A stretch of DNA of 11,340 nucleotides from Xanthobacteraceae bacterium (lineage in GTDB: Bacteria; Pseudomonadota; Alphaproteobacteria; Rhizobiales; Xanthobacteraceae), in the NCBI GenBank assembly GCA_030044035.1, contig JASHWN010000166.1, positions 1 to 11,340 of the forward strand. Direction: 5' to 3'. Every line of letters starts with the position of its first letter. Position 1 is the first letter of the stretch. Positions 3 through 11,340 of this stretch are shown in pieces. Below the pieces are notes generated by a model. It searched no databases, was not told where the DNA came from, and worked only from the letters and a program-made list of their open reading frames with translations. Both the position numbers and the translations under genes were made by a program.

Positions 3-440
3 GGCATTGCGGCCGCTTCAGTCGACCGCGCCCGCGCGTTCGTGCGCAAGGCGGCGCATCGCTCCGGCGGTACGCTGCCGCCCGGCGCGGCGCATTTGAC
101 CCGCGCATTGGCTACCCACCGGACGCTGCGCGGCCTGATCGCCGCGGCGCTGACGCGCTTCGAGACGGCCTCGGCCGATCCGGCGCTGCTTGAATCCGTC
201 GATTTCCAGACCGGCATGAACATGCACAAGGTCAACGCTTCGGAGCTCGCGGTGGCGACCGTGATGAGCGCGATGCAGGCGTGTGGGCTCGCCGGTTACC
301 GCAATGACGGCGATTTCACCATGGGCCGGCATCTGCGCGATGTGCTGTCCGCACCGATCATGATCAGCAACGACCGCATTCTCGCCAATGTGGCGGCGGC
401 GTCGTTGCTCGGCGGCACGCCGGCGTCGCTGCGCGATTAA
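3..440 (+). CDS. Acyl-CoA dehydrogenase-like flavoprotein, C-terminal part (5' truncated by window)
   Basis: The reading frame is open from base 3 to a TAA at 438-440, giving 145 residues. Only the C-terminal alpha-helical domain of an acyl-CoA dehydrogenase-like protein is visible; the family is usually about 380 residues, so the N-terminal and FAD-binding middle parts lie upstream. The recognisable stretch is the helix containing MQACGLAGY, then RHLRDVLSAPIMISNDRI, which matches the family region around the last active-site loop and FAD-contacting helix. Aligned by eye, the place where medium-chain enzymes carry the catalytic Glu (IYEGT) reads IMISN, with no acidic residue. Some family members use a Glu elsewhere, upstream of this window, so loss of activity cannot be concluded. 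It sits 62 bp upstream of the amino acid:[carrier protein] ligase in the same direction, so a carrier-protein-bound rather than a CoA-bound substrate is a reasonable inference. Confidence 0.82.
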   Translation, partial: GIAAASVDRARAFVRKAAHRSGGTLPPGAAHLTRALATHRTLRGLIAAALTRFETASADPALLESVDFQTGMNMHKVNASELAVATVMSAMQACGLAGYRNDGDFTMGRHLRDVLSAPIMISNDRILANVAAASLLGGTPASLRD

Positions 441-502
441 CGGACAGAGGCAACGAGACAGGGCAGGGGCGGCGAAAAGCTCGAACAGGAGGCGTTCTGG
501 CA

Positions 503-1426
503 ATGAATGTCGCATTCAAACAACCGATCAAAACGACGCGCAAGCTCGACTCGATCGCCGAAGCGCTGCTGGTACCGTCCGGCATCGACGGCATTTACGC
601 GCGCACCGCCGCTTTCGAGCAGGTGATCAACGGCCTCACTGACCTGATCTCGCAATACCGCGATCCGAATACCGAAGTCTTGCGCTTTCCTCCGGTCATG
701 AGCCGGCGGCAGGTGGAGAAATCCGGTTACCTGAACAGCTTCCCGCACTTTCTCGGTTGCGTCAGCTGCCTTTCGGGCAGCGACTCGGAGATCCATGCCG
801 CGGTCGATCGCCATGCGGCCGGCGAGGATTGGACGCCGTCGCTTACTGCGGCCGACCTCGTGCTCAGCCCGGCTGCCTGTTATCCGGTGTACCCATTGGT
901 CGCGAGCCGCGGCCAAATGCCCGCCGAAGGGCTATTGTTCGACGTCGCCTGCGACTGCTTCCGCCGCGAGCCCTCGAAAATGCTCGACCGGCTGCAATCG
1001 TTCCGCATGCGCGAATACGTACGCGTCGGCACGCCGCAGCAAATCGACGAGTTTCGGCGGCGCTGGATGAAGCTTGCCGAAGGCTTTGCGGCTCGGCTCG
1101 GCTTGAGCTGGCGCATCGATTACGCCAGCGATCCGTTCTTCGGCCGCGGCGGCAAGCTGATGGCGGTCAGTCAGGTCGAGCAGGCGCTCAAGTTCGAGCT
1201 GTTGATCCCGGTGCACTCGGCCGAGCAGCCGACGGCATGCATGAGCTTCAACTATCACCGTGACCATTTCGGCGCGACCTGGAATATCCACACCGCGACT
1301 AACGAAGTCGCCCATACCGGCTGCGTCGCCTTCGGCCTCGACCGGTTGGCCCTGGCGCTGTTTGCCACCCATGGACTCGATTTCGCCGCTTGGCCGGCGC
1401 CCACGCGTAAGGCGCTGGCGCTTTGA
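503..1426 (+). CDS. Amino acid:[carrier protein] ligase (class II aaRS-like)
   Basis: This 307-residue protein resembles the catalytic core of atypical seryl-tRNA synthetases without the tRNA-binding arm. Characterised homologues from Bradyrhizobium and Agrobacterium activate glycine or alanine with ATP and load it on the phosphopantetheine thiol of a small carrier protein; they do not charge tRNA. Visible motifs are the motif 2 region (CFRREP at 152-157 and FRMREYVRVG at 167-176) and motif 3 (GLDRLALALF at 278-287, with R281). The three zinc ligands I recall for the Bradyrhizobium enzyme (C131, E176, C279) correspond here to C126, E171 and C274, a constant offset of five residues, so the metal site that holds the substrate amino group looks intact. 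ATG 503 is preceded by AGGAGG at 487-492. The likely carrier-protein partner is encoded at 2409-2654. The amino acid specificity cannot be read from the sequence by eye. Confidence 0.93.
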   Translation: MNVAFKQPIKTTRKLDSIAEALLVPSGIDGIYARTAAFEQVINGLTDLISQYRDPNTEVLRFPPVMSRRQVEKSGYLNSFPHFLGCVSCLSGSDSEIHAAVDRHAAGEDWTPSLTAADLVLSPAACYPVYPLVASRGQMPAEGLLFDVACDCFRREPSKMLDRLQSFRMREYVRVGTPQQIDEFRRRWMKLAEGFAARLGLSWRIDYASDPFFGRGGKLMAVSQVEQALKFELLIPVHSAEQPTACMSFNYHRDHFGATWNIHTATNEVAHTGCVAFGLDRLALALFATHGLDFAAWPAPTRKALAL

Positions 1427-1433
1427 TGGCGCG

Positions 1434-1461
1434 CGTGCTGGGCGCTTAGACGCCCAGCACG
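1434..1461. terminator. Perfect 11-bp hairpin between convergent genes, likely bidirectional terminator
   Basis: CGTGCTGGGCG (1434-1444) pairs perfectly with CGCCCAGCACG (1451-1461) around the 6-base loop CTTAGA. It starts 7 bp after the stop of the ligase gene and overlaps the 3' end of the convergent GNAT gene, whose TAA stop (minus strand, 1446-1448) lies in the loop. Its position between two gene ends suggests a bidirectional transcription barrier or 3'-end protecting structure. There is no T-run on either side, so it is not a textbook intrinsic terminator. Confidence 0.55.
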
Positions 1462-2318
1462 GCGAATTCCGTGTAGGCCAGATCGCCGAGCCGCGGCCGT
1501 TCGCCGCCGCGAAAATATTTCGGCATGCGGCCGCCGCGAAAAACGCCGGCGAGGCCGGTAATCGGGCCGTTGGCATCGACGATGACCAACGGCTTGCCGC
1601 GCCGCGCCAGGCAGCGTCCGAGCGGGCCGGCAAAACGGATAAAATCGCCGATCTCGCGGCAATAAATCAGCCGCGCGCACGGCACGAACTTTTTGACGAT
1701 GCGCGGCCGGAATACGAACGGATAGGCGCGCGCTCCGCTGACGCACCACAGGCTGATGCAGCCGAGTTCGGCGTGCTTCACCAGAATTTCGCGCTCGAAC
1801 GTATCGATCTCGACCGGGATAGGCTCATGCGCTTCGATCACCTGCGCGGGCTCGCCGCCGAACAGGTTTTTGAGCATCGGCACGGCGACGAACAGCCCGT
1901 CGCAGTAGCGGGCAAAGCCCTGCGCCTCGATGATCGGCGTGGTGTGCGGCGCCGGCGATACGTTCAGATACGTCACATCCTTGTGGGCGAGCGCGCGCGA
2001 CACCAGAAACGGTGCGTAGAGCCGGAACGCCGGCTCGACATACCAGCTCGACAGGTTGCAACGGACCGCAAAGCCGTCGCCGGCACGCATCGTCGAGCAG
2101 ATCAGCAAAATCGCGCCGACCGGCTCGCCATCGCTCTCCAGCAGGTAACCATATTGCGGCAAGCCGAGTGGCGGCCGGCGTTTTGCGAGCTGCTCCAGCG
2201 CGTGCTGCCAGAATGCGCGGCCGCGACCGGGAAATCCGCGCGCCAACAGCGCCACGACCGCCGGCACGTCGGCATCGGCGATCTGACGGCAGCGGATTGC
2301 CGGCGCGGAAGCAACCAT
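1446..2318 (-). CDS. GNAT-family acyltransferase-like protein
   Basis: This gives 290 residues from ATG 2318. A TTG start at 2390 would add 24 residues, but these are Ser/Thr/Arg-rich and lie over the spacer before the carrier protein gene, so I prefer 2318. The N-terminal half has the GNAT fold signature: RQIADADVPAVVALL (first helix), YGYLLESDGEPVGAILL (beta hairpin), SSWYVEPAFRLYAPFLVSRA (acyl-donor-binding motif A region) and PHTTPIIEAQGFARY (motif B). The motif A pyrophosphate loop is not the classic Q/RxxGxG/A, so acyl-CoA binding is uncertain. The C-terminal half may be a second, degenerate acyltransferase-like domain. It interrupts the plus-strand cluster, converges on the ligase gene and diverges from the carrier protein gene. 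Inference: it may use the aminoacyl or acyl carrier protein as donor, transferring the tethered group to an acceptor amine. The substrate is unknown. Confidence 0.75.
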   Translation of the reverse strand: MVASAPAIRCRQIADADVPAVVALLARGFPGRGRAFWQHALEQLAKRRPPLGLPQYGYLLESDGEPVGAILLICSTMRAGDGFAVRCNLSSWYVEPAFRLYAPFLVSRALAHKDVTYLNVSPAPHTTPIIEAQGFARYCDGLFVAVPMLKNLFGGEPAQVIEAHEPIPVEIDTFEREILVKHAELGCISLWCVSGARAYPFVFRPRIVKKFVPCARLIYCREIGDFIRFAGPLGRCLARRGKPLVIVDANGPITGLAGVFRGGRMPKYFRGGERPRLGDLAYTEFAVLGV

Positions 2319-2346
2319 TCGCGTTGACCACGACCCAGTCGTGAAC

Positions 2347-2374
2347 TTGATTGTAAGTGTTGCGCGACTATACC
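2347..2374 (+). promoter_or_regulatory. Candidate sigma70-type promoter for the carrier protein operon
   Basis: In the 90 bp spacer between the divergent GNAT and carrier protein starts, TTGATT (2347-2352) and TATACC (2369-2374) are separated by 16 bp, four of six matches each to the -35 and -10 consensus. The position fits a start of transcription about 30 bp upstream of the carrier protein ATG. Weak matches, so tentative. Confidence 0.33.
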
Positions 2375-2408
2375 GGCTCGAAATGAACAAAGCGTAGGTG
2401 CGGCAATC

Positions 2409-2654
2409 ATGTCGATAAAGTTAACCATAATGGACGAGATGGCGCGGGTGGCGCGCGAGCACGGCAAGACGCTGGCGCCGCTCAATGACGATGTGGCGCT
2501 GCTCGATTCCGGCCTCGACTCGCTCGGGCTCGCGGTCCTGGTGGCGCGGCTGGAAGATCGGCTCGGCCTCGATCCGTTCACGACCTCCGATGACGTGCAG
2601 TTTCCGGTGACGGTCGGCGATTTCGTCAAGGCGTATGAGCACGGCGGTCACTGA
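2409..2654 (+). CDS. Stand-alone acyl/aminoacyl carrier protein
   Basis: This is an 81-residue acidic helical protein of the ACP/PCP family. The phosphopantetheine attachment site is S38 in LLDSGLDSLGLAVLV (31-45), the standard DSLG motif at the start of helix 2. ATG 2409 has AGGTG (2396-2400) as a ribosome-binding site. The 3' end overlaps the start of the ANL ligase by 20 bp, indicating co-transcription and probably coupled translation. Because an amino acid:[carrier protein] ligase is encoded about 1 kb upstream and an adenylating ligase directly downstream, this protein could be loaded by either or both. Its sequence is not that of the fatty-acid-synthesis AcpP (no close match to the DSLDTVEL-type helix 2), which supports a specialised role. 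Confidence 0.93.
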   Translation: MSIKLTIMDEMARVAREHGKTLAPLNDDVALLDSGLDSLGLAVLVARLEDRLGLDPFTTSDDVQFPVTVGDFVKAYEHGGH

Positions 2655-4035
2655 CGCGCAGCCGCCGCTGCGCGCGCGCGTGGCAGGCGCGTCGGCGGAC
2701 GCTTGCTTCTTCGATCGCGCGGCGAGCGTACGCCTCGCCGATCTCGTTCGCGGAACGAGCCTTTGCGGCGAGCTCGCAAAGCTGAGCTGGCGCTCCGTTC
2801 TGATCGCCACGGCAAGCCAGCTGACCGCCGCGCTGGCGCTGATCGAGCTCGACGGGGTCGCGCGACGGCTGATGGTTCTGCCGCCGGACGTCGATCCCGA
2901 TCACCTCGGCGCGCTGATCGCCGGTGCCGAAATCGATGCCATTGTGACCGACGGGACTGTGCCGCCGCAGCTTGCCGGCCTGCCGGTCCATGTCGCCTGC
3001 ACGCCGCGCATCACCCCGCTCGCGGAGCCGCCGCGTGCGTGTGAGCGCACCGAATGGGTGCTGCTGACGTCCGGCACGACCGGCGTGCCAAAGATGGCCG
3101 CACACAGCGTTGCCGGTCTCACCGCTGCGATTGCGCCGCGCGCGCCTGCGGACCCAATCGTGTGGGGCACGTTCTATGACATTCGCCGCTATGGCGGCCT
3201 GCAGATTTTTTTGCGCGCCCTGCTCGGCGGCGCTTCGCTCGTGCTGTCGAGCGCCGGCGAACCGGTTGCCGAGCATCTGTCGCGGCTGGCGCGGCATGGC
3301 ATTACGCATCTTTCCGGTACGCCGTCGCATTGGCGCCGCGCCCTGATGTCGCCCGAGATCGCCAACATCGCGCCGCGTTACGTGCGCCTTTCCGGCGAGA
3401 TCGCCGATCAGTCGGTACTCAATGCGTTGCGCACTGCGTTTCCGCACGCCGCCATCGGCCACGCCTATGCGTCGACCGAGGCCGGTGTCGTGTTTGCGGT
3501 CGACGACGGCCGCGCCGGATTTCCCGCGGCGTTCCTCAAGCGCGCGCGCAACGGCGTAGAGGTCAAAATCGTCGACGGCGTGCTGCGCATCCGCTCGCCG
3601 GGGGCCGCTTCACGCTATATCGGCGCCGGCGCACAGATCGCGGCGTTGCACGACGGCGACGGCTTCGTCGACAGCGGCGACATGGTCGAGCGCCACGGCG
3701 ACCGCTATTTCTTCGTCGGCCGCAAGGGCGGCATCATCAATATCGGCGGCCTGAAGGTCCATCCCGAGGAGGTCGAAGCCGTCATCAACGGGCATCCGCG
3801 CGTGCGCATGTCGCTGGTGCGGCCGAAGCGCAGTCCGTTCACCGGCGCCATCGTGGTCGCCGACATCGTTTTGACGGCGCCGTCCGCAGCTGCCGACGAC
3901 CAGGCGGAACTGCGCGACGATATTCTAAAACTCTGCCGCGGCGCTCTGCCGCGCCACAAGGTTCCAGCCGCCATCAGCTTCGTGCCGGCGCTTGCGGTCG
4001 CCGCGACCGGCAAGCTGGCGCGGCGCGGCGCTTGA
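2635..4035 (+). CDS. ANL-superfamily adenylating ligase (AMP-binding enzyme)
   Basis: The product is 466 residues, short for the superfamily (usually 500 to 550), with the shortening in the N-terminal part. Motifs occur in the normal order: P-loop LTSGTTGVPK (144-153), A5 YASTEAG (278-284), A7 DSGDM (346-350), A8/hinge GRKGGIINIGG (362-372), and the C-terminal catalytic Lys K460 in ATGKLAR. All parts for acyl-adenylate formation and thioester transfer are therefore present. ATG 2635 lies inside the carrier protein gene (20 bp overlap) with a weak AAGG Shine-Dalgarno at 2628-2631. The overlap makes the upstream carrier protein its probable acyl acceptor, rather than free CoA; this is inference. 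The activated acid may be a fatty, aromatic or amino acid; the binding pocket cannot be assigned by eye. The SDR gene follows after 17 bp. Confidence 0.9.
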   Translation: MSTAVTDAQPPLRARVAGASADACFFDRAASVRLADLVRGTSLCGELAKLSWRSVLIATASQLTAALALIELDGVARRLMVLPPDVDPDHLGALIAGAEIDAIVTDGTVPPQLAGLPVHVACTPRITPLAEPPRACERTEWVLLTSGTTGVPKMAAHSVAGLTAAIAPRAPADPIVWGTFYDIRRYGGLQIFLRALLGGASLVLSSAGEPVAEHLSRLARHGITHLSGTPSHWRRALMSPEIANIAPRYVRLSGEIADQSVLNALRTAFPHAAIGHAYASTEAGVVFAVDDGRAGFPAAFLKRARNGVEVKIVDGVLRIRSPGAASRYIGAGAQIAALHDGDGFVDSGDMVERHGDRYFFVGRKGGIINIGGLKVHPEEVEAVINGHPRVRMSLVRPKRSPFTGAIVVADIVLTAPSAAADDQAELRDDILKLCRGALPRHKVPAAISFVPALAVAATGKLARRGA

Positions 4036-4052
4036 GCGCAGACGGGTATTTT

Positions 4053-4799
4053 ATGAGCGAAAAGCCGCACAACGTCCTCGTCACAGGAGCGAGTCGCGGT
4101 CTCGGCCTTGCCATAGCGCGCCGGCTGAGCGCGGCCGGCTATCGGGTGATCGCGGTCGCGCGCAGCAAAAGCAAGCCGCTGACCGAGGCGATCGCCGAAG
4201 CCGAGCAAAGCGGGCGCGGGCCGATGCACTTCGCGCCGTTCGATCTCGGCAAGATCGAAGCCATTCCCGATCTCGTCAAAAATTTGCGCAAGGAGTTCGG
4301 TCCGCTCTACGGCCTCGTCAACAATGCCGCAGTCGGTCACGACGGCGCGCTTGCCATGATGCACAATTCACGCATCGAAGAGCTCGTGCGCCTGAACACG
4401 CTGTCGCCCATCGTGCTGACCAAATACGTGGTGCGCGCGATGATGGCGGAAGGGGCCGGACGCATCGTCAACGTCGCCTCGATCATCGGCTTCACCGGCT
4501 ATAGCGGGCTTGCCGCCTATGCGGCGACCAAGGCGGCGATGCTCGGCTTCACCCGGTCGCTGGCGCGCGAAGTCGGGCGGCTCGGCATCAATGTCAACGC
4601 CGTGGCGCCAGGCTTTTTGGACACCGAGATGACCCACGGACTGGCCGGCGAGCAGCGCCAACGCGTGATCCGCCGCAGTGCGCTGCGCCGCCTCGCCGAC
4701 GTGGACGACGTCGCCAACGCGGTCGAGTTCCTGCTCGGCGACAAGGCGCGCAGCATCTCCGGCACGGTGCTCACCGTCGACGCCGGCACGACCGCCTAA
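4053..4799 (+). CDS. Short-chain dehydrogenase/reductase, FabG-like
   Basis: This is a 248-residue classical SDR of normal family length. The cofactor-binding loop TGASRGLG is at 11-18, and the basic residue in VARS (R37) after the second strand suggests preference for NADP(H). Further motifs are NNAA (90-93), N115, and the catalytic S143 (NVASIIG), Y156 and K160 (YAATK); the full Asn-Ser-Tyr-Lys set is present. The C-terminal SGTVLTVDAG is typical of 3-oxoacyl-ACP reductase (FabG)-like proteins. It starts 17 bp after the ANL ligase and so is probably the last gene of the carrier protein-ligase-SDR operon. The likely role is reduction of a keto group, or oxidation of a hydroxyl, on a carrier-protein-bound intermediate. 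No strong Shine-Dalgarno is visible. Confidence 0.92.
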   Translation: MSEKPHNVLVTGASRGLGLAIARRLSAAGYRVIAVARSKSKPLTEAIAEAEQSGRGPMHFAPFDLGKIEAIPDLVKNLRKEFGPLYGLVNNAAVGHDGALAMMHNSRIEELVRLNTLSPIVLTKYVVRAMMAEGAGRIVNVASIIGFTGYSGLAAYAATKAAMLGFTRSLAREVGRLGINVNAVAPGFLDTEMTHGLAGEQRQRVIRRSALRRLADVDDVANAVEFLLGDKARSISGTVLTVDAGTTA

Positions 4800-5003: not shown

Positions 5004-7124
5004 ATGAAACGATTGAGCATCGCCGTTGGCTTGTTCGGGATCGCTGCCTTGGTGCAGCCGATCCTGGAGCACGATTTTGCCGCAGCGGATCTGGGTGTGG
5101 TCGCACTGTTGTGTGCCTTCACGACCTATCGCTCCGCCGCCATCTCCAGCTTTCTCAAAATTTTCGTCGGCATCTTTTCGACCGAGACGATCATCTTCGG
5201 CCTGGCCGTCGTTGTTGACCGAACCGAGCTTTGGCCTTCCTACTTCGGGCAGGAACGACTGCCAAATTCGCTGCCGCTTACCGTCGCGATCTTCTCGATC
5301 CTGGTCTATGCGGTGGCGCAGCTGCAGACGGTCGGTGAGGTCATGCGCGTCGCCGACCGCTACTTCGACGCCGCGGATAGTGGAACCGCGCGGATCTGGC
5401 CGTTGCGGCCGTTCACCACGTTGGAGCGCCGCATTGCCGTAGCCATGGTGGTGTTTCTGGTCGTTCTTAATCAGGCCGAGGTCGGCATCACCGTGCGGCT
5501 GAATTTCTTCAACCGCGACTTGTTCGACGCCCTCCAGCACCGCGACGCCCACGTGTTCTGGCAGCAGCTCCTGTTCGTGTTCACGCCATGGGTCTTCGTC
5601 TTAGTGGCCATGGTCGTGGTCGAATATTTTACCCAGTTCATGCTGGTGATCCGCTGGCGGCGCTGGCTGACCGACCACTTCGTGTCGCGCTGGCTCACGA
5701 GCCACAATCACTACCGCATCAGTCTCGTCGCCGGCCAAACCGACAACCCCGACCAGCGTATTTCCGAGGACATTTTCCGCTTCATCAACGGCGGCAGCGA
5801 CGGCTCGATCCAGGCGTTTGGGCTTTACGATTTCTCCATCCTGTTGATCTCGACCATCACGACTTTGGTGTCGTTTTCCATCGTGCTGTGGACGCTGTCG
5901 CAATCGTTCACCTTCCCCGGCACCAACATCGTGTTGCCCGGGTTTTTGTTCTGGATCGCCTTGATATACGCGGCAGCGGGGACGCTGATCACGCACTTGA
6001 TCGGCCGGCCGCTGATCCGGCTGTATTTCCGGCGCCAGCACATGGAGGCCGACTTCCGCTTCTCGCTGGCGCGGTTGCGTGAATATACCGAGCAGGTGGC
6101 GCTGCTCGGCGGTGAGAGCGCGGAGCAAAATATGTTGGGCTCGCGCTTCGGCGCGCTGGTCGCCAATTTTCTCGACGTCATCTATCGCAGCATGCGGGTA
6201 CGCGCGTTCACCCAGACTTTCAACCAACTGTCGCCGATCATTCCTTTAATCTTCACGGCGCCGTTCTATTTTTTCGGCAAGATCGAGCTTGGCGTCATGA
6301 CGCAGACCGCAGAGGCGTTCGGCCGCGTGGCCGATTCGCTGACCTTCTTCGTCAATTATTATACCTACCTCGCCGGCTTCAAATCGGTGGTCGACCGTCT
6401 CAACTCGTTCGACGTGGCGATCGACCAGGCGCAGGCGCTGGCCGACGCCGGCCCGGCGCGCATTCCCGCCGGCGGGGGCGACATCGTGCTCGATGATGTG
6501 GCGCTGGCGTTGCCGGACGGCCGGCGCATTGTCGATGTCCAGCATCTCGATTTCGCCGCCGGTCAAAGCGTCGCCGTGTCCGGTCCGTCCGGATCGGGCA
6601 AGTCGACGTTGTTCCGCGCCATATCGGGGCTGTGGCCCTACGGCGCCGGCCGCATCAAGGAACCGGACGGCGCCCGTATCATGGTGATCCCGACCAAGCC
6701 GTACATTCCGATCGGCACGCTGCGTGCCGCGGTCACTTATCCGGCGGTGCCCGGCACCGACCGCGACGACGAGATCCGCGCCGCGCTTGTCGATGCGAAT
6801 CTCGGCGCGCTCGCCGACGAGCTCGACCGCGAGGAGGTCTGGTCGCAGCGCCTGTCGAGCGGCGAGCAGCAGCGGCTGGCGCTGGCCCGCGCGCTGTTGC
6901 GGCGACCGGACTGGCTCTTGCTCGACGAAGCAACCTGTGCGGTCGAAGAAAAACTCGAAGCCGACCTTTACGCCAAGCTGATCAAGCGGCTGCCGAAGAC
7001 CACGATCGTGTCGATCGGCCACCGCTCGACATTGGTCCCGCTGCATCACCGGCATCTGGAAATGTCGCCGCAGGGCGATCACTTCACGCTGCGTGAGGCC
7101 GCGAAGGCGGACGCGGCGGAGTGA
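5004..7124 (+). CDS. Fused ABC transporter permease/ATPase, BclA/YddA/SbmA-like family
   Basis: This 706-residue protein has extra hydrophobic segments at about 5-20, 28-45, 50-71 and 90-108, then a six-helix permease (about 140-460) of the SbmA/BacA-like ABC_membrane_2 type, then one ATPase domain (about 490-690). Membrane landmarks include VRLNFFNRDLFDALQHRD and the cytoplasmic WRRWLTDHFVSRWL with NPDQRISEDI (248-257), both hallmarks of the family. ATPase motifs are Walker A GPSGSGKST (527-535), signature LSSGEQQR (617-624), Walker B LLLDE (638-642) and switch H673. The Q-loop reads IPTKPYIPIGTLR, with Thr564 where relatives have Gln (PQ-PY), and the D-loop is CAVE instead of SALD. Characterised relatives import peptides (BclA, BacA) or vitamin B12 (Rv1819c). 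It acts as a homodimer in the inner membrane. Location after the carrier-protein operon allows, but does not prove, a link to its product. Confidence 0.92.
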   Translation: MKRLSIAVGLFGIAALVQPILEHDFAAADLGVVALLCAFTTYRSAAISSFLKIFVGIFSTETIIFGLAVVVDRTELWPSYFGQERLPNSLPLTVAIFSILVYAVAQLQTVGEVMRVADRYFDAADSGTARIWPLRPFTTLERRIAVAMVVFLVVLNQAEVGITVRLNFFNRDLFDALQHRDAHVFWQQLLFVFTPWVFVLVAMVVVEYFTQFMLVIRWRRWLTDHFVSRWLTSHNHYRISLVAGQTDNPDQRISEDIFRFINGGSDGSIQAFGLYDFSILLISTITTLVSFSIVLWTLSQSFTFPGTNIVLPGFLFWIALIYAAAGTLITHLIGRPLIRLYFRRQHMEADFRFSLARLREYTEQVALLGGESAEQNMLGSRFGALVANFLDVIYRSMRVRAFTQTFNQLSPIIPLIFTAPFYFFGKIELGVMTQTAEAFGRVADSLTFFVNYYTYLAGFKSVVDRLNSFDVAIDQAQALADAGPARIPAGGGDIVLDDVALALPDGRRIVDVQHLDFAAGQSVAVSGPSGSGKSTLFRAISGLWPYGAGRIKEPDGARIMVIPTKPYIPIGTLRAAVTYPAVPGTDRDDEIRAALVDANLGALADELDREEVWSQRLSSGEQQRLALARALLRRPDWLLLDEATCAVEEKLEADLYAKLIKRLPKTTIVSIGHRSTLVPLHHRHLEMSPQGDHFTLREAAKADAAE

Positions 7125-7274
7125 AATGGCTACAATTCGTGAATGTCTGCAACTCGGATGCCGGCCTAAGTCGAAAACATGGCGAACGCCGCGGCGTTTT
7201 GCTGAGCGACACGGCGCGCACCTTCCGCCACGGCGCCGACCAGTTGATGTCGGCGGATGGCGCAGGCACGTCTG

Positions 7275-7874
7275 CTACGGTGGGCAATTGCCGCCGGAGA
7301 GGACCCCGGCGGCGCAGGTCGTCACAGCAAGGCTAGAGACGGTGCTGACGTTGCCGTAATTGGTGGCCTTGCCCGTGTAGGTCGTGGTTCCGAGCATCGG
7401 CACATTGCTGCCGCATGCCGTCACCGCGGCGGCTGTGGGGCCGCTCACCCAGTTGAAGTAGTACGGCAGGAAGGCCTGCGTATAGACTTGGTTGCCGGCC
7501 ATGATCGGAAAAGTGGCCGTGGTCGCGGCGATCGAATAGGTGAACGGGTGTGTTTCCGTATAGCGTCCACGATTGCCGTTGCAGATCGCCTTGCCCGTTG
7601 CGCTCAATGAAATAGTTTTTATTCCCCCCGTCTCCTGCGACTGGAAGGTAACGTCGTAATTGTCACCCGGGTTGATGAAGGTGGTTGCTAACGACCCCGC
7701 CGGCACTAGGTTTGGGTTGGAGCCGGCGGCGGTGGTCTGATCATAGAGCACCCAGTAGACCGACGGCGGCGTTGGATTGTTGGTCTGCACCGGACCGGTC
7801 GAGCAGGCTGCGAGAAGGCCGCAACCCGCAAGCGCGATTGCCAGTAGCGTGATTGCCGTGCGTTGGATTGACAC
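7275..7874 (-). CDS. Small secreted lipoprotein of unknown function
   Basis: The product is 199 residues starting with GTG at 7874, preceded by the strong purine run AAAGGGGGGAG (7886-7876, minus strand), which supports this start; there is no ATG in frame until residue 126. The N-terminus is a lipoprotein signal: a short basic region, a hydrophobic stretch, and two overlapping lipoboxes, LAGC (15-18) and LAAC (21-24), so the acylated cysteine is C18 or C24. The mature part is rich in Thr, Ala, Gly and Asn and has four further cysteines (C98, C154, C187, C197) that could form two disulphides in the periplasm. A predicted beta-rich fold (VYWVLYDQ, YDVTFQS, KTISLSATG) is an impression only. I do not recognise the family. 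It converges with the ABC transporter gene (150 bp apart) and has its own candidate promoter. Confidence 0.75.
   Translation of the reverse strand: MSIQRTAITLLAIALAGCGLLAACSTGPVQTNNPTPPSVYWVLYDQTTAAGSNPNLVPAGSLATTFINPGDNYDVTFQSQETGGIKTISLSATGKAICNGNRGRYTETHPFTYSIAATTATFPIMAGNQVYTQAFLPYYFNWVSGPTAAAVTACGSNVPMLGTTTYTGKATNYGNVSTVSSLAVTTCAAGVLSGGNCPP
7290..7313 (-). repeat. Perfect 8-bp inverted repeat at the 3' end of the lipoprotein gene
   Basis: GCCGCCGG (7290-7297) and CCGGCGGC (7306-7313) flank an 8-base spacer. On the minus strand the hairpin sits just before the TAG stop (7275-7277). There is no following U-run, so it may be coding-sequence structure or part of a weak terminator. Confidence 0.4.
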
Positions 7875-7997
7875 ACTCCCCCCTTTCGGCGGCCGATGCC
7901 GCTACCGTGATCTCAAAGTGCTGAAAATCGTTTTGCCCCCGGTATCGCGGACCGCATGGCGCCCGTTTTATCCGACTGCCGGTTCGCGATTGTGCGC

Positions 7998-8026
7998 AAC
8001 CTAGCACATGTTAAGATTGATCGCAA
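7998..8026 (-). promoter_or_regulatory. Candidate promoter of the lipoprotein gene
   Basis: On the minus strand TTGCGA (8026-8021) is followed after exactly 17 bp by TAGGTT (8003-7998), the latter preceded by TGC (extended -10). An inverted repeat TGTGC-N8-GCACA (7991-8008) overlaps the -10 and could be an operator. The predicted transcript would have a leader of roughly 115 bases, which is long, so a nearer promoter is not excluded. The rest of the 259 bp gap (7875-8133) shows no gene I can support. Confidence 0.38.
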
Positions 8027-8133
8027 TTCTTGTTCAACCTCAATTCCAGCGCGGCTTACCGTTGGCAATAGCGGCGCTCCCGCAAATGCCGATCGCATTC
8101 ACTTAAAATGAACAACCAGTGGTAGCCAGTGAC

Positions 8134-9954
8134 CTAAAGGCGTATTGCGCCGGCCCGGATGCGCTCATAGAGCGCTCGGTCGAGCGGGACAAAAGCCTGC
8201 CGCGCCGGATCGTCGAAATAGATGGCATCGTCCGTTGCGGAGGGATCGTAGCCCTGGCGCGCCAGGTCGGCGGTCTTGTGCTTGAACGTGGCAGTGGTCT
8301 CGATGCGGTCCTTGATGCGCAGGAACAGCGGGCGTGCATAAGTCGGCAAGTGCTGCGCGAGGTGTTTGCGCAGCGCGGCTAAATCCAGCGCGCCGTCCGG
8401 CACCACCGTCGCCATGCCGGCTGCGCCTTCGCAGCCCGGAACCGCGACGCCGTAAACTGTGGTTTCCAGGATGCCGGGAAATGCGCTGATCGCGGCGGCG
8501 ACCTCCGAGGTCGCCACGTTCTCGCTCTTCCAGCGAAAGGTGTCGCCGATCCGGTCGACGAAATAGAAGAACCCGTTCTCGTCCTTGCGCATCAGATCGC
8601 CGGTGCGATACCAGGCGTCGCCCGGCGCGAACACGTTGCGCAGGATTTTGCGCGCGGTGTCCTCGCCGCTGGTATAGCCCTCGAAAGCGGCACCGGATTG
8701 CGCTGCGCCGTCACTGATGCGTCCGATCGCCTCGCCGCTCTCGTCGGCCGCGCAGCGGATGCAAAACCCGTCGGCGCCGCGCGCCGGTTCGCCGGTCGCG
8801 TGATCGAATTGCACCAGCGCCAGCGGAAAGCGATGCGCCAAGAATGACGGCACGCGGCCGATGGCGCCGATCTCGCCTTCGATATTGTAGAGCGAGACGT
8901 TGCCTTCGGTCGCGGCGTAAAACTCCAGAATGCGCGGGATGGCAAAGCGCTCGGCAAAGCGCGGCCACACGTCGGCGCGCAAACCGTTGCCGCAGGCGAG
9001 ACGCAGCCGATGCTCGCGCTCGCGCCGATGCTCGGGTGCGCTCGTCAAATAGCGGCAAAGCTCGCCGATATATTGAAACAACGTGCAGTTCCAATCGTAC
9101 ACGTCATCCCAGAAATTTTTCGCCGAGAATTTCTCGCGGATCACCACCGAGCCGCCGTTAACCAACAGCGCGCCGGTTGCCACCACGCCGCCGATCGAGT
9201 GATAAAGCGGCAGGCAATCGTACATGCGGTCGTCGGGACCGGTGTTCATCAGCCCGGCGAACCAAAAGCTCCATTGCAGCAGGCGGCGGTGGCTGACATT
9301 GGCGGCTTTCGGCAATCCGGTCGTGCCGGACGTGTAAATCGCCAGCGCGCGGTCGGCTATGTTGGTGCCGCGGCGTTCCGTTGGCGCGAGCGGCGATGCG
9401 GCAAACCGTTCGATCTCACGATCGATGCGGGCAAACGCATCCTCATCGCCACCATGGACCCAGATTCGCGGCCGGCTCGTGATGTGCTGCGCGGCGGAGC
9501 GGTGTGCGTCGACCAACTCGGCAGCGACGATAACATGCCTGGGCGCGACGATGTCGATGCAATGCGCCAGCGCCGCCCCGTGCAGATTGGTGTTGAGCAG
9601 CGCGACGCCGCCGCCGACGCTGGTGATGCCGAGCCAGATCGCCATGTATTCGGGTCGGTTCGGCATCAAGAGGCCGACCGTCTCGCCTCTGCCGAGGCAA
9701 TGCGCCAGCGCCCAGCGCGCGTAGCGGTTGGCGCGCTCGGTGAGGCCGCGATAGGTCAGATATTCGCCGGCCGAAAGCAGTGCCGGCGCCTCGCCGCGGC
9801 TCTGCGCGATCTCCTCGATGACACACGGCAACAGCCGCCGCGGCTCGCGCGCGATCGGCGCGGTCGCCTCGAGCGCGCGCACCCAGTCGCGCAGCGCGGT
9901 GTCGGAGCCGCGCGCCGGCCGCTGCTTCGGTTCCGGAAAGTCGACGAGGGCCAT
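8134..9954 (-). CDS. Long-chain acyl-CoA synthetase, FATP/VLCS-like
   Basis: The product is 606 residues from ATG 9954 (TTG 9960 would add two residues). It converts fatty acid, ATP and CoA to acyl-CoA via an acyl-adenylate. ANL motifs occur in order: YTSGTTGLPK (207-216), the A5 motif FYAATEGN (345-352), YRTGD (449-453), and the FATP/VLCS-type hinge DRIGDTFRWKSENVAT (467-482), where DTFRWK-ENV is typical of fatty-acid-transport-protein-like synthetases rather than FadD. The C-terminal catalytic lysine is in TTATFKHK (K558). Length and motifs are complete. The upstream side faces the divergent sulfhydrylase gene; downstream, 259 bp separate it from the lipoprotein, so it is probably monocistronic. 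It is likely a housekeeping or catabolic enzyme that is peripherally membrane associated and vectorially activates exogenous fatty acids. It is unrelated in motif detail to the shorter ANL ligase at 2635-4035. Confidence 0.92.
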   Translation of the reverse strand: MALVDFPEPKQRPARGSDTALRDWVRALEATAPIAREPRRLLPCVIEEIAQSRGEAPALLSAGEYLTYRGLTERANRYARWALAHCLGRGETVGLLMPNRPEYMAIWLGITSVGGGVALLNTNLHGAALAHCIDIVAPRHVIVAAELVDAHRSAAQHITSRPRIWVHGGDEDAFARIDREIERFAASPLAPTERRGTNIADRALAIYTSGTTGLPKAANVSHRRLLQWSFWFAGLMNTGPDDRMYDCLPLYHSIGGVVATGALLVNGGSVVIREKFSAKNFWDDVYDWNCTLFQYIGELCRYLTSAPEHRREREHRLRLACGNGLRADVWPRFAERFAIPRILEFYAATEGNVSLYNIEGEIGAIGRVPSFLAHRFPLALVQFDHATGEPARGADGFCIRCAADESGEAIGRISDGAAQSGAAFEGYTSGEDTARKILRNVFAPGDAWYRTGDLMRKDENGFFYFVDRIGDTFRWKSENVATSEVAAAISAFPGILETTVYGVAVPGCEGAAGMATVVPDGALDLAALRKHLAQHLPTYARPLFLRIKDRIETTATFKHKTADLARQGYDPSATDDAIYFDDPARQAFVPLDRALYERIRAGAIRL

Positions 9955-10190
9955 GCGCAATGATCGCCCAATACCGTTAGTCTTCCGCTCCGCAATTATC
10001 TAAAATTCGAATGATCATGGTTGCGCTGCCAGCTTTTTCTGCAGTCGCGCCGCCGCGCCTTCCGCGCATGGCAAACGGTTAAGGTTATTCTTTTCAATTT
10101 ACCGCGCTTGTGTTGTTCGGCCCGCGGGCCACGGATAAGAAACCGAAATTGCCTACAATTGCGCTCGTTTCGACCGAGCGGCGGGAGAAC
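9955..10190. promoter_or_regulatory. Divergent intergenic region between acyl-CoA synthetase and sulfhydrylase genes
   Basis: This 236 bp is clearly more AT-rich than the genes and must hold two divergent promoters. For the minus-strand gene, GATAAT (10000-9995) is a good -10 match without a clear -35. For the plus-strand gene TACAAT (10154-10159) is a -10 candidate, also without a clear -35. Overlapping palindromes ATTCGAAT (10005-10012) and ATGATCAT (10011-10018), the 12-bp palindrome GGCCCGCGGGCC (10119-10130), and a 6-bp hairpin CGCTCG/CGAGCG (10162-10167/10175-10180) just before the sulfhydrylase ribosome-binding site are possible regulatory sites. I do not recognise a SAM riboswitch here. 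Confidence 0.45.
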
Positions 10191-11340
10191 ATGAGACGCG
10201 AAACCATCGCCATTCACGGCGGCTACGAAACCGATCCCACCACCAAGTCGGTTGCGGTGCCGATTTATCAGACCGTGGCCTACGAGTTCGACAGCGCCGA
10301 CCACGGCGCCGCCTTGTTCAATCTCGAAGCGCCCGGCTACCGCTATAGCCGCATCGCCAATCCGACCGTGCAGGTTTTGGAGCGTCGTGTTGCCGCGCTT
10401 GAAGGCGGCGTCGACGCACTGTGCGTGAGCACCGGCCAGGCCGCGCTCAATTACGCGGTGCTCAACCTGACGCAGATGGGCAGCAACATCGTCTCGGTGC
10501 CGCAGCTTTACGGCACCACATACACGCTGTTCGCCCACATCCTGCCGGGGCAGGGCATCGCCGTGCGCTTTGCCGAATCCGATCAGCCTGCCGCCATCGA
10601 GCAGCTGATCGACGGCAACACCCGCGCCATCTTCTGCGAGAGCGTCGGCAATCCGGCCGGCAATATCTGCGACATCGAGGCGCTGGCCGCGGTCGCCGCC
10701 CGCCACGGCGTGCCACTCGTCGTTGACAACACCGTGGCGACGCCGCTCCTCCTGCGGCCGATCGAATACGGCGCCGACATTGTCGTGCACTCGCTGACCA
10801 AATTTCTGGGCGGCCACGGCACCACGCTGGGCGGCGCCATTGTCGATTCCGGCCGCTTCGACTGGAACGCGCAGGCGCGGCGGTTCCCGATGTTTTGCGA
10901 GCCGGACTCGTCCTATCACGGCCTCGTCTACACCGAGCATTTTGGCGCCGGTGCCTATATTGCGCGCTGCCGCAGCGTCTATCAGCGCACCACCGGCGCG
11001 GTGATCGCGCCGCTCTCGGCGTTTCTCTTGCTGCAGGGCGTCGAGACCGTGGCGCTGCGCGTCGAGCGCCACATCGCCAATGCGCGCCGCGTCGCTGAAT
11101 TCCTGCGCGCCGATCGGCGCGTTGCCTGGGTCAATTACGCCGGCTTCGCCGACAGCCCATATCACGCGCTGGCGCAGAAATATTTCGGCGGCCGCGCCTG
11201 TTCGCTGCTGACCTTCGGTATCGCCGGCGGACTCGAGGCGGGGAAACGCTTTTACGACGCGCTCAAGCTGTTCAAGCGGCTGGTCAACATGGGTGACGCC
11301 AAATCGCTAGCCTGCCATCCGGCCTCGACTACGCATCGGC
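10191..11340 (+). CDS. metY: O-acetylhomoserine sulfhydrylase (MetY-like), 3' truncated by window
   Basis: The frame is open from ATG 10191 to the window end, 383 codons; the family is usually about 425 to 445 residues, so roughly the last tenth is missing. This PLP enzyme of the Cys/Met metabolism family makes homocysteine from O-acetylhomoserine and sulfide in the cytoplasm. Motifs are YRYSRIANPT (50-59, phosphate and substrate contacts), STGQAALNY (80-88), VVDNTVATP (177-185, with D179 contacting the PLP ring nitrogen), and the PLP lysine K204 in HSLTKFLGGHGT. The EPDSSYHGL and KYFGGRACSLLTFG segments are typical of the longer MetY type and argue against the shorter O-succinylhomoserine enzyme MetZ. 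GGGAG (10183-10187) is the ribosome-binding site. The gene is divergent from the acyl-CoA synthetase, with no evident functional link to the carrier-protein cluster. Confidence 0.93.
   Translation, partial: MRRETIAIHGGYETDPTTKSVAVPIYQTVAYEFDSADHGAALFNLEAPGYRYSRIANPTVQVLERRVAALEGGVDALCVSTGQAALNYAVLNLTQMGSNIVSVPQLYGTTYTLFAHILPGQGIAVRFAESDQPAAIEQLIDGNTRAIFCESVGNPAGNICDIEALAAVAARHGVPLVVDNTVATPLLLRPIEYGADIVVHSLTKFLGGHGTTLGGAIVDSGRFDWNAQARRFPMFCEPDSSYHGLVYTEHFGAGAYIARCRSVYQRTTGAVIAPLSAFLLLQGVETVALRVERHIANARRVAEFLRADRRVAWVNYAGFADSPYHALAQKYFGGRACSLLTFGIAGGLEAGKRFYDALKLFKRLVNMGDAKSLACHPASTTHR

Follow-up and report, generated by a model that had tools for sequence, protein, structure and literature searches.

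The window analysed here is an 11,340-nucleotide stretch of DNA from a soil bacterium that starts at the first base of its contig, within a 68%-complete assembly of 637 contigs. Among named relatives, MAGs of the Xanthobacteraceae come closest. With the window's last base the contig seems to end as well, because the frame of the last gene, which is MetY-like, is open to that base and its open frame stops there. The features annotated along the window are as follows.

3..440, + strand: ACAD-fold flavoenzyme, C-terminal 145 residues (PF00441, E 3e-8), the remainder lying off the contig
503..1426, + strand: class II aaRS-like amino acid:[carrier protein] ligase of the Bll0957 type (NF005479; ligase of PDB 3mey/4h2s)
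1446..2390, − strand: tandem-GNAT-like acyltransferase, by predicted fold (longest ORF; likely start 2318, 290 aa)
2409..2654, + strand: stand-alone carrier protein CP-D, 81 residues, with a DSGLDSL attachment site (PF00550)
2635..4035, + strand: ANL-family adenylating ligase, 466 aa (PF00501, PF13193; TSGTTG and TGK motifs)
4053..4799, + strand: FabG-like SDR (PF13561, E 5e-52; TGxxxGxG and YxxxK motifs)
5004..7124, + strand: SbmA/BacA- and ABCD-like ABC transporter (PF06472, PF05992, PF00005)
8134..9960, − strand: FATP-type acyl-CoA synthetase FACS, PRK08279 type (NF006134, above cut-off)
10194..11340, + strand: MetY-like O-acylhomoserine sulfhydrylase-type PLP enzyme, cut by the window end (PF01053; TIGR01326, above cut-off)

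The first six of these had been described in a first-pass annotation of the sequence, and the ORF listing, the sequence itself and Pfam/NCBIfam models confirm them, position for position. The extent given there, which ended at 4799, proved too short, as two genes beyond that point, FACS (8134–9960, −) and the MetY-like one (from 10194 on), also belong to the recurring set. The transporter, a fused SbmA/BacA-like protein, stands beside the set in near relatives only (5 of 80 related loci) and is best regarded as a lineage-specific neighbour with a weak claim to membership. For the SDR, the best NCBIfam model, a 3-oxoacyl-ACP reductase, stays below its cut-off. No condensation domain of the nonribosomal peptide synthetase kind was found in the nine window proteins scanned.

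The GNAT protein has no Pfam match and no sequence match in the PDB; its predicted structure is GNAT-like over residues 30–158 and, more loosely, that of a tandem GNAT. The gene probably starts at 2318 (1446–2318) and not at 2390, because a length of 290 aa prevails among the 120 homologues listed.

Two further observations concern the downstream half of the window. The close relative L031, in which the two flanks join up directly in the alignment, lacks a stretch of about 1 kb (7125–8132) with a putative lipoprotein ORF (7275–7874, −), and L032 lacks most of it. In a second contig of the same assembly (C385 of G000, L148), positions 2–194 overlap the end of the window, matching it at 176 of 193 bases; the assembly may mix near relatives. 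This contig carries a MetA-like gene at 374–1369.

The aminoacyl ligase, its flavoenzyme neighbour and two carrier proteins

The aaRS-like ligase scores 452.5 bits against NF005479, for which the curated cut-off is 357, and matches Bll0957 in the PDB at E 4e-130, with residues 14–306 aligned. Its 307 residues make up a short class II catalytic core without a tRNA-binding domain, which aligns to type 2 SerRS over the C-terminal part of SerRS only. Identity to the ligases of named Bradyrhizobium strains is 65–66%, and a FastTree tree of the 30 best ligases places the window's protein in a 16-genome clade of the Bll0957 type with a support of 0.973. Bll0957 itself, amino acid:[carrier protein] ligase 1, is known together with an aminoacyl carrier protein (PDB 3mey, 4h2s and others) and falls under the same family model. 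We take its substrate to be glycine, and the window's ligase probably activates an amino acid, glycine, too. What is new here is a pathway context for Bll0957-type ligases and not a new enzyme class; in the literature within reach we found no pathway for Bll0957.

The neighbouring ACAD-fold fragment is 86% identical to residues 275–419 of a 419-residue relative in L034. It had been called acyl-CoA dehydrogenase-like, a description that holds for the fold and the domains and fails at the catalytic base. The catalytic Glu at the MCAD-type position is absent; by inspection of the alignment to 8i4p, the position corresponds to Ile395, which is invariant in all 25 rows of the ACAD alignment, the window's included. 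At residue 265, which we take to be the IVD-type base position of this fold, the full-length rows carry Ala, Ser, Thr or Cys and no acidic residue. With no acidic residue at either of the usual base positions, the protein need not be a dehydrogenase. Among ACAD-fold enzymes, ColB1 (PDB 7xp7) and the prolyl-ACP dehydrogenase 4irn oxidise carrier-tethered aminoacyl groups; the window-type protein differs from both in lacking an acidic residue at the usual base positions, and the KijD3/DnmZ N-oxygenases and DszC/TdsC are as close to it as ColB1 and 4irn are.

The first-pass annotation had suspected a second carrier protein just upstream of the window, and relatives of the locus bear this out. Each of L033, L034, L035, L036, L037, L038 and L039 has a divergent carrier gene, CP-U, before its ACAD-like gene, and the ligase of L033 is 91% identical to the window's. 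By tblastn, which here reports presence within a locus and not position, 75 of the 80 related loci have a CP-U homologue, among them every one of the 56 that span at least 20 kb. Where position was followed, CP-U is usually divergent and just before the ACAD gene, although L043 has it on the same strand as ACAD and L053 has it behind the ligase. A search for CP-U in the window's own 68%-complete assembly did not find it (best match 34%, E 2e-4).

The two carriers have different kin. The CP-U proteins of L034 and L035 belong to PF00550, and the best PDB match of the latter is 4h2s_C, 'aminoacyl carrier protein 1' (E 1.4e-13), which is the carrier solved with a Bll0957-type ligase. For CP-D the nearest PDB match is MacpD (E 7e-7), and no aminoacyl carrier chain (4h2s, 4h2w, 2jq4) is among its 27 PDB matches with E up to 10. 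Residues D37, S38 and L39 of CP-D are invariant in 12 of 12 aligned sequences. In the window the ANL and CP-D genes share 20 bases at the start of ANL. CP-D, ANL and SDR are on the same strand in 24 of the 24 ANL-bearing loci among the 80, and in the gene-order survey described below they keep one order. Since CP-U stands beside the ACAD gene and is kin to the solved aminoacyl carriers, and CP-D is not, the two ligases most likely do not share a carrier: the aaRS-like ligase would work with CP-U and ANL with CP-D. Dual loading of the single visible carrier, which had been offered as an alternative, loses its footing here, as it is CP-U and not CP-D that is related to the carriers solved with these ligases.

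Distribution of the gene set

The same 297 genomes of the order were searched with the ligase, ANL, GNAT, MetY-like, FACS and MetA-like proteins, the MetA-like query being that of L039. The ligase has matches in 65 genomes (E 1e-30), 16 of which make up the Bll0957-type clade. ANL is found in 18 genomes (1e-50), GNAT in 30 (1e-15) and FACS in 77 (1e-120), the latter two including all 18 ANL genomes, with 59 others for FACS. MetY-like matches occur in 34 genomes (1e-120), 16 of them at 70% identity or more and the next at 61% or less, and MetA-like matches in 16 (1e-40). All 16 genomes of the Bll0957 clade hold ANL, GNAT, FACS, MetY-like and MetA-like proteins, and the sets of genomes with MetY-like (at least 70%) and MetA-like proteins are exactly these 16. 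Hypergeometric figures for the co-occurrence range from 1e-11 to 1e-26 (17 ligase genomes, G255 included); they treat genomes as independent and, because the genomes are related, overstate that independence and serve as a guide only.

Thus the genes that had been read together as one locus do co-occur, with ANL and GNAT in 16 of 16 clade genomes, and an amino-acid-tethering locus with two activation chemistries, aaRS-like and ANL, is supported. The association across the order holds at the level of whole genomes, but adjacency is not general, as ANL lies close by in 24 of the 80 related loci. The 12 genomes with a GNAT match and no ANL all belong to one genus, and their GNAT homologues are distant (29–37% identity). 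Separately, L142 and L144, from another genus, have GNAT homologues of 33–34% identity at most about 2 kb from a different AMP-dependent ligase, which is 25–26% identical to ANL.

The 80 loci are the best 80 of at least 565 ligase relatives and are weighted to Bradyrhizobium. Gene calling in them relied on a codon-usage ORF caller of our own together with blastp families and tblastn cut-offs, not on a standard annotator, and short loci have genes hidden by contig ends. The presence count over the 80 loci and the gene-order survey (L031–L144) used different cut-offs, and their counts differ. ANL lies within the fetched stretch in 24 loci, and the other 56, mostly Bradyrhizobium, are without it. 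Among the 24, SDR and CP-D are present in 24 each, FACS in 21, CP-U and GNAT in 20 each, the MetY-like gene in 17, the MetA-like gene in 10, an alpha/beta-hydrolase and a class IV aminotransferase in 8 each, and a TPP enzyme in 4. Throughout the gene-order survey, which spans alphaproteobacterial isolates as well as betaproteobacterial MAGs (L042, L043), the same genes occur in many orders, and in L031, L032 and L039 the MetA-like gene follows MetY.

The set can also be scattered. Genus g2, which we infer to be Bradyrhizobium-like from its closeness to named loci, contains five genomes with the full set and three without a match to the ligase, ANL, GNAT, MetY-like or MetA-like proteins. In the carriers of the set within this genus the genes lie in unlinked places (by coordinates in G253 and G035); for example, G253 has the ligase at 6.91 Mb, ANL at 0.96 Mb and the MetY-like gene at 0.57 Mb.

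A proposed pathway and its alternatives

Our preferred reading, to which we give a probability of about 0.62, is that the window holds most of a dispersed two-carrier pathway that combines a tethered oxidised glycine, a second acid and a homoserine-derived unit. By sequence and distribution, one unit comprises the aaRS-like ligase, the ACAD-fold flavoenzyme and, in relatives, CP-U. The other comprises CP-D, ANL and SDR, usually with the tandem GNAT and the FATP-type acyl-CoA synthetase, and the MetY- and MetA-like genes travel along. In the proposed scheme, the aaRS-like ligase would load glycine on CP-U, and the flavoenzyme would oxidise the tethered aminoacyl group, for which oxygenation or C–N oxidation appears likelier than alpha,beta-dehydrogenation. 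ANL would load the second acid on CP-D, where the SDR would reduce it. GNAT may then join both by acyl transfer to an amine, a guess from its fold, and the MetA-like and MetY-like enzymes would supply a gamma-substituted 2-aminobutyrate unit from homoserine. The first-pass annotation had proposed that an amino acid and a second acid are tethered, combined and redox-modified; distribution is what supports this as one pathway. As in the Bll0957 system, a carrier of the same type stands beside an ACAD-fold gene in the window's relatives; different from that system are ANL, the second carrier, SDR, GNAT and the MetA/MetY-like partners, here assigned by co-occurrence.

More tentatively, the set could represent a new class of module-free natural-product pathways in which a carrier-oxidised glycine and a carrier-reduced acid are joined by GNAT and a gamma-substituted homoserine unit, vinylglycine-like or hydroxylamine-containing, is added by the O-acylhomoserine/MetY pair, with the genes lying at three separate places on the chromosome in some Bradyrhizobium-like genomes. 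Studied since 2010, the aaRS-like carrier-protein ligases have been orphan enzymes with structures and a published activity; they now have a testable pathway. Co-occurrence names about ten likely partner genes; the window holds eight, of which two are truncated at its edges. The pattern also pairs each ligase with a probable carrier, separates two settings that share the ligase–carrier–flavoenzyme unit, and points to culturable Bradyrhizobium strains for knock-outs. The pathway is recognisable even though its genes can be unlinked, and screening restricted to gene clusters would overlook such pathways.

The second of the two settings bears on the nature of the end product. In a sister ligase clade the carrier, ACAD-like and ligase genes are followed by DUF1839 and GH2 genes, as annotated in Rhizobium leguminosarum, and among the loci of this type (L017–L030) DUF1839 is present in 14 of 14 and GH2 in 12 of 14. 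The carrier–ACAD–ligase unit is thus common to these Rhizobium loci (Atu2571–Atu2574 type) and to the window's type, and none of the window's other partners is annotated in the R. leguminosarum stretch. A note in proof to PMC2922099 proposed that such ligases take part in forming an amide on a surface sugar, citing as neighbours the uncharacterised protein Atu2574, a glycosidase and liposaccharide genes. The product might accordingly modify the cell surface, as an amino acid or acyl-amino acid attached to an amino sugar, and not be a free metabolite, and a distant carrier–ANL–SDR trio on a Qingshengfaniella plasmid (L153, 7384–9705) does adjoin a glycosyltransferase and an acyltransferase, with a TIGR03032 protein beside it. 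However, the neighbours on which the note in proof rests its proposal are missing from the window's type, as DUF1839 and GH2 occur in none of its 80 loci, and a MetA/MetY pair would be unexpected for sugar decoration. We regard a surface product as improbable, if the strongest of the competing explanations.

Slightly less probable still is that the locus brings together two separate neighbouring pathways, CP-U/ACAD/aaRS-like ligase on one side and CP-D/ANL/SDR/GNAT/FACS on the other, perhaps with a loosely common end product. Two genomes, G188 and G255, hold CP-D, ANL, SDR, GNAT and FACS but have neither a ligase of the Bll0957 clade nor MetY/MetA-like genes, so the CP-D/ANL unit can stand by itself; G188 has no ligase match at all, and the ligase of G255 is outside the clade, beside DUF1839 and GH2. 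The separation of the units in genus g2 and the occurrence of the ligase unit with DUF1839 and GH2 in the sister clade point the same way. Against this, ANL and the MetY-like and MetA-like genes are in all 16 of the sampled Bll0957-clade genomes, and GNAT bridges the units, standing beside the ligase in many Bradyrhizobium loci and beside CP-D elsewhere.

For the MetY-like and MetA-like genes, both from families used in methionine synthesis, one could suppose ordinary methionine genes that share the lineage by chance. We surveyed methionine genes in 18 genomes, namely 15 of the 16 clade genomes (G106 was left out) and the three genus-g2 genomes without the set. Besides the cluster's genes, MetZ is above its family cut-off in 11 of the 15 clade genomes, and a MetX-like protein is found in 14 of 15 (13 by one match of 468–491 bits, for a cut-off of 500, and the window's own assembly by fragments). 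The pair might serve methionine in G186, where no MetX-like protein was found, and in G000, G196, G218 and G272, where no MetZ is above the cut-off. All three genus-g2 genomes without the set have MetZ and a MetX-like protein, and the pair is absent from these genomes, which lack the ligase; elsewhere it stays close to other genes of the set across many gene orders. An everyday methionine role seems rather unlikely. An extra maker of O-acylhomoserine and an extra gamma-replacement enzyme besides MetZ/MetX suggest a homoserine-derived unit in the product, in most clade genomes. Gamma-replacement of O-acylhomoserine is used in natural products, as by RtxA in rhizobitoxine, Fub5/Fub7 in fusaric acid and LolC in loline biosynthesis. 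As in those systems, an O-acylhomoserine maker and a MetY-type enzyme stand beside a specialised pathway; unlike them, the MetY-like gene is unfused in the loci examined and two stand-alone carriers are present.

Finally, a single-carrier arrangement in which both ligases charge CP-D has very little in its favour. The scan of nine window proteins turned up no carrier besides CP-D, and the search of the incomplete source assembly did not reveal CP-U, but a CP-U homologue is present in 75 of the 80 related loci, and the solved aminoacyl carrier proteins match CP-U and not CP-D.

Returning to the two-carrier pathway, some loci vary in gene content. The CP-D/ANL/SDR/GNAT/FACS unit of L118 and L122, from genomes without Bll0957-clade ligase or MetY/MetA-like matches, is possibly a simpler form of the pathway. 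A member of the pyridoxal-dependent decarboxylase family lies between the MetY-like gene and CP-U in L043 (PF00282), L056 and L087, and SnoaL-like genes are present in L042, L043, L045 and L056; both are possible tailoring variants.
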